Assembly: GCA_003167215.1 (NCBI GenBank)
Contig: PMTV01000053.1
Location: 62,001-126,000 of the forward strand
Direction: 5' to 3'
DNA from: Acidobacteriota bacterium
GTDB lineage: Bacteria > Acidobacteriota > Terriglobia > Acidiferrales > UBA7541
DNA: 64,000 nucleotides
The position numbers and the translations under genes were made by a program. The notes below the pieces were generated by a model. It made no database searches. It was not told where the DNA came from and saw nothing but the letters and a program-made list of their open reading frames with translations. Shown in pieces: positions 42,526 through 46,161 of this stretch (the stretch's first letter is position 1; each line of letters opens with the position of its first letter).

Positions 42526-43878
42526 CTAGAAGAAATGGTGGCGAAGCAAAGCGCCGGACAATCCAGTAGCCGCGGGCTCGAAGATGGAGGTGTAGATCAG
42601 GACCAGCGTCAGGATGATCATGATAATGCTGGCAGTCCAAGCCACCACGTTGAAACCCCAAGAGTTGGTGTGCTCGCCCATTAAATCGCGGCGGTTGATC
42701 AGTATCAGAATGAAAATCAAGACGATGGGCAGCCAGATACCGTTCCCCACTTGCGAATAAATCAAGATTTTCCACAACGGCGCCTTGGGGAACAGGACGA
42801 TACCTGCGCCCAACACAATGAGCGTGGTATAGAGCGAATAAAACGCGGGAGCTTCTTTAAACTTGCGATCGATTCCCGCTTCAAAGCCCAGGCCCTCGCA
42901 GATAACATGTGCCGTCGAAAGCGGCAGAATCGAGGCCGCGAATAGCGACGCATTCAACAGTCCGAACGCGAACAGCCCGCCGGCCCACTTCCCTGCCAGC
43001 GGAACCAAAGCTTGCGCCGCCTCTTTGGCGCTGGAAATACTGGTCAGGCCGTGCACGTTCAAAGTCGCGGCGCAGCAAACGATAATAAAAAAGACGATCA
43101 CCATGCAGGAGATGCTGCCTACCAGCACGTCCATACGCGCATGCTTATACTGTCGCGGGCCGACGCGTTTTTCCACAAAGCCCGCCTGCAGATAAAAAAA
43201 CTGCCAGGGAGCAATGGTGGTCCCCACCAGCCCGGTCAGCATTAGAAGGTATGGAGCATTCATGTGCAGGGACGGCACGACGAGTTCGTGGGCTGCGTAC
43301 AGCCAGTCGGGCTTCGCTAAGAACGCCGATAGCACGTAAGAAAGATAAAAGGCGCAAGCCACGAGAAAGATTTTTTCCACGATGCGATAGCTTCCGTAAA
43401 TCACAAGGAGCCAAACGGCAATCGCCGCCAGCGGCACGGAAATATAGCGGCTGACGTGCATCACCTCCGACGCTTCTGCCACGCCCGAAAATTCGGCAAC
43501 GGTATTGAAGAGGTCAACGAACAGGGCTGCAACCATCACGAAAAACGTGGAGCGGAATCCAAATTCTTCGCGAATCAGGTCGGAGAGGCCTTTCCCGGTG
43601 ACCACCCCCATACGCGCGCACATTTCCTCGCTGACGTACAGTGCGATGGTCATGGGAATCAGCGACCACAGGAGGGTGTAGCCGAATTGCGCGCCCGCTT
43701 GCGAGTAGGTGCTGATCCCGCCGGCGTCATTATCCACGTTTGAAGTGATAAGCCCGGGGCCCACGACTGCCAGGAACAGGGCCATGCGCTTGCGCCAGAA
43801 GTGCGAGCGGCGACTAAAATCCGTGCCGCGCTTCTTCCACGCTCCCCACGCGTTCGTTAAAGTGGCCCAGGTGTCCAT
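42526..43878 (-). CDS. Nramp-family transporter with altered metal site
   Basis: A 450-residue membrane protein of the Nramp family with about 11 helices. The first helix reads GPGLITSNVDNDAGGISTY, where manganese/iron Nramps have Asp-Pro-Gly-Asn; here the aligned residues are Asp51-Ala-Gly-Gly54. The sixth helix motif, usually Met-Pro-His, reads GTTIAPWQFFYLQAG, so the selectivity Met is replaced by Ala223. Loss of that Met is known to weaken the preference for soft metals, and Nramp-related magnesium transporters lack it. It is 36 bases after a soluble MgtE-type Mg2+ sensor protein, which fits Mg2+ transport. The substrate remains inferred. The start has a weak ribosome site. Confidence 0.85.
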   Translation of the reverse strand: MDTWATLTNAWGAWKKRGTDFSRRSHFWRKRMALFLAVVGPGLITSNVDNDAGGISTYSQAGAQFGYTLLWSLIPMTIALYVSEEMCARMGVVTGKGLSDLIREEFGFRSTFFVMVAALFVDLFNTVAEFSGVAEASEVMHVSRYISVPLAAIAVWLLVIYGSYRIVEKIFLVACAFYLSYVLSAFLAKPDWLYAAHELVVPSLHMNAPYLLMLTGLVGTTIAPWQFFYLQAGFVEKRVGPRQYKHARMDVLVGSISCMVIVFFIIVCCAATLNVHGLTSISSAKEAAQALVPLAGKWAGGLFAFGLLNASLFAASILPLSTAHVICEGLGFEAGIDRKFKEAPAFYSLYTTLIVLGAGIVLFPKAPLWKILIYSQVGNGIWLPIVLIFILILINRRDLMGEHTNSWGFNVVAWTASIIMIILTLVLIYTSIFEPAATGLSGALLRHHFF

Positions 43879-43914
43879 CGCTTCGTCTCTAGCGCTCCGC
43901 TTGCCGCTCTAATT

Positions 43915-45156
43915 TCAGACTTTTGCTTGTAGCCTATTTACTACGTCGTCCACGGTAATTGCGCCGATGGGATGTTTTAGCTCGTTAACTACAGTGAGGC
44001 TCCGCAAATTGTATTTATCGAACAGTTCGAAAACTTCCTTATCCTTCGAATCCGGCGCGACAAAAAGGAGCGGCTGAAAAATCAGTTCGGCCATGCGCTG
44101 CTCGGTTTCAGCCAGGAGTAGCCTGCCAATTGGAACCGTGCCAGCAAGCTCGGAATCGCGATTGATCAGCACCACGTTGTCTACCTGATCGATGCCAATT
44201 TCGTGGAAGCGAATGTAATCCACCACCTCGCCTCGCGTAGCGTCTTCGCCCACCACGATGATTTCGGTGGTCATCATACCGCCGGCGGAATCTTCGCCGA
44301 ATTTCATCAGTTGTTCCACCGCGCTGGCTTCGCGATCTTCCATTTCGTGCAAAAGCTCTTTCGATTTGTCAGGCTCAAGGCTCGCAATCAGGTCCGCGGC
44401 CTCGTCCGGATTCATTTCCTCCATGATATCCGCGGCGCGTTCCGGATCGAGTTTTTCCACCACTTGCGTTTGCAGCCGCTTGTCGAGTTCGGCGATGGTC
44501 TCGGCAGCGCTTTCTTCGTCAAGGGAAGCGATAATCGTCTGCCGTTCGTCGGGAGACAACTGCTCCATAATGTCCGCCAAATCGGCCGGATGCAGCGCCG
44601 CGAGCTTTTCGCTCGACAGGCGCAATTTCACCCGGCGGAGCGGATCCGGCTCGACTATATTGACGAACTCCCACTGAATTTTTCGCGGCGGCAATTTGGA
44701 TTGAATCCTTCGAATCGCCCGGGGCGGAACAATTCCCTGCAACAGCCGGCGCACCGCGCCAGCTAGCCCCACATCCACCTGCGTAATGCGCAGCTCCGTG
44801 TTTCCATTGGTTTGGCTATCCGCAAGATCGATGTCGTTCACGCGCACGACCTTGCGCCCGTTCGTGTCGATTATTTGCTGGTCCAGCAAATCCTTTCCCA
44901 TGGCGAGGTAGCTCTCGTTCGGCTGGTACAGGTCAAGATCCGATTCATCCGTGGTAAGCGCGATGCGGCCCGGGCTGATCTGACCAATCTGGTCGTAGCG
45001 AGCTATCAGTGGCCGGTACTGGCCGCGGCTGAGGAGAAGTTTGGATACTCGGTTGGGCTGATCGCCGGGCTCGACGAACATCTCTTTGACGCGACCTACA
45101 AAATTCCCGTGTGAGTCATACGTCTCGGCCCCTAGCAGTTCCGTTGCGTGAAGCAT
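43915..45156 (-). CDS. PRC-barrel, MgtE N-domain and CBS protein without membrane part
   Basis: A 413-residue soluble protein. The start at 45156 follows AAGGAG. Two PRC-barrel-like units occupy about 1-140 (LLGAETYDSHGNFVGRV, then DLLDQQIIDTNGRKVVRV). An MgtE intracellular domain (helical repeats LHPADLADIMEQLSPDERQ then LDPERAADIMEEMNPDEAA) spans about 180-275. A CBS pair follows, starting near GGMMTTEIIVVGEDAT. In MgtE this N-CBS module senses cytoplasmic Mg2+ and gates a five-helix channel, which is absent here. The Nramp transporter gene directly downstream may provide the channel part. It may be regulated by the upstream leader. Confidence 0.85.
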   Translation of the reverse strand: MLHATELLGAETYDSHGNFVGRVKEMFVEPGDQPNRVSKLLLSRGQYRPLIARYDQIGQISPGRIALTTDESDLDLYQPNESYLAMGKDLLDQQIIDTNGRKVVRVNDIDLADSQTNGNTELRITQVDVGLAGAVRRLLQGIVPPRAIRRIQSKLPPRKIQWEFVNIVEPDPLRRVKLRLSSEKLAALHPADLADIMEQLSPDERQTIIASLDEESAAETIAELDKRLQTQVVEKLDPERAADIMEEMNPDEAADLIASLEPDKSKELLHEMEDREASAVEQLMKFGEDSAGGMMTTEIIVVGEDATRGEVVDYIRFHEIGIDQVDNVVLINRDSELAGTVPIGRLLLAETEQRMAELIFQPLLFVAPDSKDKEVFELFDKYNLRSLTVVNELKHPIGAITVDDVVNRLQAKV

Positions 45157-45213
45157 GGTGACTCCTTCAGCGGCTTCCGCCTTCCTGCGATAACAAGTGC
45201 AAGTCCAATACCA

Positions 45214-45255
45214 ATAAAAAATGCCCGAAGCCAGCAACCCAACCGGCTTCGGGCA
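45214..45255 (-). terminator. Intrinsic terminator in the leader of the PRC-MgtE_N-CBS gene
   Basis: An 11-bp perfect stem (45222-45232 with 45245-45255, TGCCCGAAGCC and its complement) with a 12-base loop. On the minus strand it is followed by six T. It lies about 58 bases before the ATG at 45156. Confidence 0.75.
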
Positions 45256-45487
45256 CAAAGAAAATCCCCTAGGCTAGTTTAGGCCTGGCCTGGCCTTCCT
45301 GTTCGTACGAGCGCCAAACGGCTCAAAGGCAGCCATGACCAAGGCACGGTCGGTCCTGTCGACGCCTGCCAACTGGAGAAGTCGGCAACCGGGCCGGCCC
45401 CGTTTTGGGACTCCGGCAAGGACGCTACTCCAAGGCTCCGAATTGGACTGCAGCTCTGCCATTTCGATGCGCGAGTGCTCGTTTCGA
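45214..45487 (-). ncRNA. Candidate structured leader RNA or small RNA
   Basis: On the minus strand, a promoter-like sequence is followed by about 270 bases and then the terminator at 45214-45255. The stretch has several complementary segments, for instance GACC/GGTC near 45320-45345 and GCCTTT/GGAAGGC near 45290-45325. A GGAGTAGCG tract near 45425 is reminiscent of the 5' strand of yybP-ykoY Mn2+ riboswitches, but the second conserved loop could not be aligned with confidence. A 62-codon open frame from an ATG at 45462 lacks a ribosome site. The interpretation is inferential. Confidence 0.35.
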
Positions 45488-45516
45488 CTACTAAATGCAG
45501 ACGATAACTTTGTCAA
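45488..45516 (-). promoter_or_regulatory. Promoter candidate for the leader RNA
   Basis: TTGACA at 45511-45516 and TAGTAG at 45488-45493 are separated by 17 bases. It stands 16 bases after the stop of the CYTH gene. The -35 match is perfect, the -10 match weak. Confidence 0.45.
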
Positions 45517-45531: not shown

Positions 45532-46161
45532 TTAGCAAGATTTTTGCGAGTTGAATACCATATTTCGAGGAGTGCGCTTCAAACGGCGGCAATCGGCAGC
45601 ATATAGATCCCAATACGTCGCGCGGATATGGTCCTTCGCGGAGTATCCCAGGCTCCGAGCGGTTCGTCGAATAGCCGCCGGACTGCCTTCGAGCTCGAGA
45701 AAGGTGCCGATCGGGGTCTCGTCCAGGTCCAGATGGAGCCCGCCAAGCCGGAAGCTGGTCCGGTACTTCTCGTATTTAAAACCCGCGCGCAAACCAAGGT
45801 CTTGGAGCACCCGAGGCCACCGCCCCCGTTCTCCAACCGACATTTCGCTCTCCAGGCGCTCCTTGTATGGCAGCTTCTTCCGGGAGCGCGATGGAGTGGG
45901 AGGCGGCGCCTTAGCAGTCAAAATCGTCGCTCGCGGGCCGCCGCGCGAGCCATTGCCGGGTGCCGGAGTCTGTGTACGCAGTCGCAACAAACGGCCGTGT
46001 CGCCAAAAGCTTGAATCTGGAGTATCGAAGAGTGTGTTCTGTTCGAAAGTTCGACCGCTCGGCACCGCACCCATCTTCCGTATGTGACGCAGTACTTCGC
46101 GAAGGTTTGAAACGCGCAGCTTGATTTCGATTTCGCGCTTGGTATTTATTTTTGCGGCCAC
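45532..46161 (-). CDS. CYTH-domain protein (class IV adenylate cyclase/thiamine triphosphatase-like)
   Basis: A 209-residue protein. The signature EIEIK (Glu10, Glu12, Lys14) is that of CYTH tunnel-fold enzymes, which act on triphosphates with Mg2+. Further charged strands include LFDTPDSSFWRHGRLLRLR, YKERLESEMSV and LHLDLDETPIGTFLELEG. Class IV adenylate cyclases and inorganic or thiamine triphosphatases share this layout, so the substrate is open. It is upstream of the leader and PRC-MgtE_N-CBS gene on the same strand. Confidence 0.85.
   Translation of the reverse strand: MAAKINTKREIEIKLRVSNLREVLRHIRKMGAVPSGRTFEQNTLFDTPDSSFWRHGRLLRLRTQTPAPGNGSRGGPRATILTAKAPPPTPSRSRKKLPYKERLESEMSVGERGRWPRVLQDLGLRAGFKYEKYRTSFRLGGLHLDLDETPIGTFLELEGSPAAIRRTARSLGYSAKDHIRATYWDLYAADCRRLKRTPRNMVFNSQKSC

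Follow-up and report, generated by a model that had tools for sequence, protein, structure and literature searches.

A 64,000-nucleotide stretch of an Acidobacteriota genome (the window) carries an operon that we read as coding for an NRMT-type Mg2+ importer and a soluble, MgtE-like sensor partner, preceded by a leader that may control transcription through translation of a leader peptide in answer to Mg2+. As a whole, we give this reading an even chance. Parts of the picture are known: According to Shin et al. (2014), nrmT genes are mostly accompanied by a neighbor resembling the N-terminal domain of MgtE, for which these authors proposed feedback sensing (PMC4072509). The present analysis adds that the two genes co-occur exactly even where they are unlinked, that the pair takes the place of the MgtE channel, and that the operon has a leader, which we read as a new form of leader-peptide attenuation.

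The host is a soil bacterium, and its genome is 95.7% complete. Both genes lie on the minus strand at the coordinates given in a preliminary description of this DNA (Table 1), with the transporter gene 3′ of the partner gene across a gap of 36 nt. The longest ORF for the partner begins at a TTG at 45258; the ATG at 45156 is preceded by AAGGAG and is the start common to relatives. The feature first described stopped at the partner start codon, so that the leader upstream fell outside it. Beyond the leader, on the same strand, lies a gene with a CYTH domain (PF01928; window 45532–46161), and several relatives have similar CYTH-region sequence ahead of the leader.

Table 1. Features of the NRMT operon and its leader (window coordinates)
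Feature	Position	Strand	Remarks
NRMT-type SLC11/Nramp transporter gene	42526..43878	minus	450 aa; Pfam Nramp 5e-94
Soluble partner gene	43915..45156	minus	413 aa; PRC-like N-terminal part, MgtE_N, CBS
MgtE_N and CBS region of partner (aa 188–410)	43927..44595	minus	
Second PRC-like segment of partner (aa 83–165)	44662..44910	minus	β-rich in model
Partner Shine-Dalgarno sequence (AGGAG)	45162..45166	minus	
P2, intrinsic terminator hairpin and T-run	45216..45256	minus	terminator 45256–45221; 15 pairs, dG −29.0
P1 hairpin	45251..45269	minus	candidate antiterminator; just past leader stop codon, overlaps terminator base; dG −4.3
Leader ORF, MAELQSNSEPWSS...TNRKARPGLN	45274..45462	minus	62 codons; upstream of partner
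Promoter-like site, TTGACAAAG ... TTTAGTAGTC (TTGACA - TTTAGTAGTC)	45486..45516	minus	similar across genus and family

Residues 49–55 of the transporter read DNDAGGI and residues 219–225 GTTIAPW, which include the changes reported earlier in TM1 (DAGG) and TM6 (TTIAPW). The preliminary description took these for lost selectivity residues. The residues are as it stated, but they are better described as an NRMT motif: DAGG and TTIA match the published NRMT consensus, DxxG in TM1 and TxxA/T in TM6 (PMC8806188), and the protein reaches 334 bits with 7qia, an NRMT structure, but 99 bits with the best of the classical MntH structures. The supposedly lost residues thus belong to a known subfamily. 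Structure 7qia contains the identical strings NDAGGIST and GTTIAPW. The bit scores place the transporter with the known NRMTs and not with the classical Nramps, and motif and 7qia score rule out a new transporter family. The NRMT class is defined by Mg2+ transport that is not H+-coupled, and for the protein assigned to it here the evidence bearing on this definition is the genomic replacement of MgtE. In motif (DxxG-TxxA) and sequence, the protein resembles the NRMT/NrmT proteins of Clostridium acetobutylicum (Ca_c0685 and Ca_c3329) and Eggerthella lenta (EleNRMT). C. acetobutylicum has an M-box riboswitch, whereas here a leader ORF and a terminator without an Rfam match occupy that place. The own genome has a second Nramp-family gene (L002; G000:C19:207894–209174), 29% identical, with ENDAPSM and GATVTPW at the motif sites, which is neither the classical nor the NRMT motif. 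One other genome has a tandem pair of NRMT copies (G257:C4:120181–122792).

Co-occurrence was assessed in 297 genomes of the phylum. With the NRMT clade taken as 43% identity or more, and with clade E-value limits chosen after gaps were seen (1.4e-108 to 1.2e-70; 2.2e-48 to 2.5e-36), NRMT was found in 69 genomes (70 copies) and a full-length partner in the same 69, with no mismatch either way. The genes are adjacent in 29 of these genomes and separated by 0.7 to 6 kb in 20; in the remaining 20, they lie at a distance or on different contigs, and contig splits may conceal linkage in some. Co-occurrence without linkage indicates that the two proteins belong together, which bears out the functional link first suggested; that suggestion had been staked on conserved adjacency, which the 29 genomes display. 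A gene fusion of MgtE_N-CBS with NRMT, the other sign to be looked for, was found in none of 80 NRMT loci taken from a bacterial and archaeal genome collection. Long open frames in G278 and G176, taken up as fusion candidates, do not coincide with the partner frame. The partner lies within 4 kb on either side in 58 of the 80 loci, and some of the other 22 are near contig ends. A second clade with the NRMT motif (33–36% identity, outside the count of 69) has both genes in 12 of 13 regions, and seven partner-less paralogue regions have other motifs, DDDPSGI in five and DNDAGAV in two.

Gene order and spacing vary around this pair. In the second NRMT-motif clade, found elsewhere in the phylum (L092–L103), the order is reversed, with the transporter followed by the partner. 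The partner-less Nramp paralogues L105, L107, L109, L110, and L111 carry DDDPSGI and GTTISPY. In L151 (2976–4058) and L139 (2910–3992), the partner and NRMT are separated by a gene for a protein of about 360 aa that looks like a glycosyltransferase on visual inspection; gaps of 1.1 to 1.3 kb likewise separate the two in several genomes from the same class.

The MgtE channel (PF01769) was detected in 11 of the 69 NRMT genomes versus 164 of the 228 others (odds ratio 0.074; Fisher p = 8e-17, a value that overstates independence since the genomes are related). CorA has no association with NRMT (42/69 vs 135/228). This near-exclusion suggests that the pair stands in for the MgtE channel. CorA and/or MgtE accompany NRMT in 45 of the 69 genomes; among the 24 with neither, five have MgtA above the cut-off and 19 have none of the three. 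The own genome is one of these 19: none of CorA, the MgtE channel, and MgtA exceeds the cut-off in it, and one CNNM/CorC gene is present. Within the window's class, NRMT is present in 33 of 33 genomes, MgtE in two, and CorA in 14; 17 have neither MgtE nor CorA. In one genome, a CorA gene adjoins the NRMT gene (G161:C44:22210–23085), and in another an MgtA gene lies near it (G296:C11:3265–5850). The replacement of MgtE and the lack of CorA, MgtE, and MgtA above the cut-off in the own genome support Mg2+ uptake, as the preliminary description had supposed, and Mg2+ would then be a substrate of the window NRMT. The 45 NRMT genomes that also have CorA and/or MgtE, the lack of association with CorA, and the CNNM/CorC gene of the own genome weigh on the other side.

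The partner had been described as combining PRC, MgtE_N, and CBS domains without a channel, and Pfam agrees: the three domains are returned and PF01769 is reported neither for this protein nor anywhere in the own genome. As the Pfam PRC match covers aa 3–33 only, a PRC barrel is a putative label for aa 83–165. The most conserved stretch of the protein, aa 89–108 (mean top-residue frequency 0.92 in 30 partners), could be a contact surface. A Foldseek search with the AlphaFold2 model (pLDDT 84.8, pTM 0.45) gave as best match 2yvy, the cytosolic domain of MgtE (target TM 0.86); because of the pTM of 0.45, the arrangement of the domains was left uninterpreted. At the Mg2+-site residues named in PMC5882242, the window partner keeps E59, D91, D95, and D247 of Thermus thermophilus MgtE and has Asn at both D226 and D250. 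Among 64 clade-1 partners, position 59 is Glu in 50 and Asp in eight, D91 is kept in 48, D95 in 63, and D247 in 50; D226 is Asn in 59, and D250 is mostly Ser, Ala, Thr, or Asn. The plug helix (MgtE E258/D259) is absent, since the chain stops before it. Judged by sequence, the Mg2+ sites of the MgtE N and CBS domains are partly kept, and the sites reaching the plug are gone. Hence, the partner resembles the MgtE channel in its N and CBS domains and differs from it in the missing channel domain and plug helix, in the two replaced aspartates, and in the PRC-like N-terminal part, which MgtE does not have. The literature search returned no paper assigning a role to the NRMT partner protein. We think that the partner may act physically on the carrier.

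Ahead of the partner gene, a promoter-like site, which a generic promoter scan did not list, is followed by a leader ORF and a terminator. All 29 leaders examined have an ORF and then an intrinsic terminator after its stop codon; all leader sequences are related, so that counts over them are not independent. The partner is present in 18 of 20 genomes of the genus, and each of the 18 has a leader ORF with N and C motif regions (49–70 codons, eight lengths), with a divergent N motif in L079. Alternative frames are open in one (+1) and two (+2) of the 18. Codon variants in the C motif are synonymous in 10 of 15 cases, compared with 4 of 14 and 2 of 14 in the other frames and about 29% at random; the N block, with 11 synonymous variants out of 40, has no such excess. 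These patterns argue for a clear constraint on the peptide in the C motif. Pfam gives no match for the window leader ORF. A frame test based on anchor distances was set aside, the anchors being mismatched in several rows. With its coding pattern and terminator, the leader appears to have the make-up of an attenuator, a coding-type ORF placed between promoter and terminator.

Over 23 leaders as a set, the P1 hairpin is more stable than with shuffled spacers, at −180.6 compared with −126.3 (SD 12.6; z = −4.3; 0/100). In single leaders it is weak: for the window, 12 shuffles out of 100 did as well, and P1 is unsupported in L083, L084, L085, and L119. RNAalifold, run on an alignment of 19 sequences, supports the terminator and not P1.

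A covariance model (R1) trained on the 18 genus leaders and L080 matched each of the 18 genus genomes once with an E-value of 2e-17 or better, at the NRMT operon, with other matches starting at 0.005. Leaders outside the training set were found at the right place in L122 (7e-11), L119 (5e-8; the leader of G316, whose link to the partner runs solely through a tandem repeat where contigs end), L124 (3e-5), and L083 (6e-4), and weakly in L082 (0.017), L125 (0.12), L123 (0.17), L084 (0.48), L126 (0.51), and L085 (0.66). In G316, it is a short tandem repeat between leader and partner that splits the contigs (L119 end, L081 start). The leader is confined to the own family and part of the order; the order relatives L087 and L088 have a terminator and no ATG ORF of the leader kind, and L089 has neither. 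A phylum-wide leader was rejected, as 44 rows from other families, with heuristic starts, yielded a terminator in five, none of them 80 nt or less from the start. An M-box or other known RNA was ruled out by the Rfam search, which gave no match in the window leader (E-value mode) or in 20 loci (gathering thresholds). No such leader was found in the literature searched, which is thin on subscription journals and includes PMC2965389, PMC4833913, and PMC11109978.

An Asp/Glu-Pro pair occurs within the first 20 residues of 25 of the 29 leader peptides, usually at residue 8 or 9, compared with a mean of 4.0 and a maximum of 12 in 2000 shuffles. It is missing in four leaders, and ExEP or ExDP is present in five. 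The arrangement recalls MgtL, the leader peptide of mgtA in Escherichia coli and Salmonella, in having a leader ORF before an Mg2+ importer gene, an early acidic-proline motif, and transcription termination. When Mg2+ is low, ribosomes drop off at the EPDP of MgtL, and transcription of mgtA follows; MgtL acts through this motif on a Rho-dependent terminator (PMC11282234), whereas the terminator here is intrinsic. The leader ORFs described here are 41–70 codons long and have mostly a single acidic residue before Pro, as does the window peptide, rather than the EPDP of MgtL. In trp-type attenuators, a stop codon, a hairpin overlapping the 5′ arm of the terminator, and an intrinsic terminator follow one another. 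The leader here has a stop codon, an overlapping hairpin, and an intrinsic terminator in the same order; unlike that type, it has no run of codons for one amino acid, a P1 that is weak in the window, and no amino-acid gene downstream.

By analogy with MgtL, we propose that interruption of leader translation in low Mg2+ relieves termination. Transcription would begin upstream of the leader ORF. In ample Mg2+, translation of the leader would run through to the end of the ORF, and the transcript would end at the terminator. In low Mg2+, the early acidic-proline motif would make ribosomes stall or leave the message, P1 could then form and weaken the base of the terminator, and the operon would be read. 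The Nramp-fold protein would import Mg2+, and probably also Mn2+, and the product of the upstream gene would work with it as a cytosolic MgtE-like Mg2+ sensor. That leader peptides sensing Mg2+ have evolved in Acidobacteriota as a lineage of their own, in which an abort at E/D-P frees the operon from an intrinsic terminator and so turns it on, is a tentative proposal to which we give somewhat less than an even chance.

The same operon and attenuator could serve Mn2+, or Mn2+ together with Mg2+, with leader and partner answering Mn2+. The closest tested pair, Acp2976/Acp2977 of Acidobacterium capsulatum, shares phylum, gene order, and lack of an M-box with the window pair; in B. subtilis, it rescued an Mn2+ defect fully and an Mg2+ defect at low millimolar concentrations only, so that this NrmT appeared mainly as an Mn2+ transporter there (PMC4072509), and EleNRMT carries both metals (PMC8806188). 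Against this stand the replaced MgtE channel and the other Mg2+ importers missing here, the several MgtE Mg2+-site residues kept in the partner, and the CorA and MgtA genes near the NRMT operon in G161 and G296, and we consider Mn2+ as the governing metal unlikely. The B. subtilis experiments also bear on the part played by the partner, whose co-expression, the one published case, did not improve the Mg2+ rescue (PMC4072509). Rather than a gate, the partner might be an Mg2+-dependent scaffold, a chaperone, or another factor sharing the distribution of NRMT, in keeping with its frequent lack of linkage, the absence of fusions in the 80 loci, and the position of its most conserved stretch in the PRC-like part foreign to MgtE. 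However, in both sequence and fold its C-terminal half corresponds to the MgtE gating module, with the Mg2+-site residues partly kept. We rate a role other than gating as rather unlikely, and gating itself as putative.

For the leader, the signal might be an amino acid or the general rate of translation, with stalling at the C-terminal NREARPGL, instead of Mg2+. REARPGL is the best conserved part within the genus, its codon variants are mostly synonymous, and the order of stop codon, hairpin, and terminator resembles that of amino-acid attenuators. We nevertheless regard such a signal as improbable, since there is no run of a single amino acid and since other sequences (GGFTGG, ADRG, GRA) replace the C motif outside the genus, where the early E/D-P stays. 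It is still less probable that the leader ORF is a small gene in its own right, ended by a terminator of its own, with the partner expressed from a separate promoter or by leaky read-through. Room for a promoter exists in several genomes, with 109 to 279 nt between terminator and partner (e.g., L066, L070, L072, L077, and L079), but the terminator lies 24 to 53 nt from the ATG in L078, L067, L080, L071, and L075, and strong R1 matches occur at the NRMT operon only. In L078, 18 nt lie between the end of the T-run and the partner ATG, which leaves no room for another promoter, so that expression of the partner in this locus must depend on read-through of the terminator.

The preferred reading, an Mg2+ importer with an MgtE-like sensor and an Mg2+-answering leader, concerns a phylum in which the sole tested member looked like an Mn2+ carrier (PMC4072509), and co-occurrence together with the near-exclusion of MgtE makes an Mg2+ role testable in Acidobacteriota. 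If the more tentative proposal of a separate leader-peptide lineage is true, Mg2+ would control the operon twice, at transcription through the leader and at transport through the partner, and this double control would replace both the M-box and the MgtE channel.
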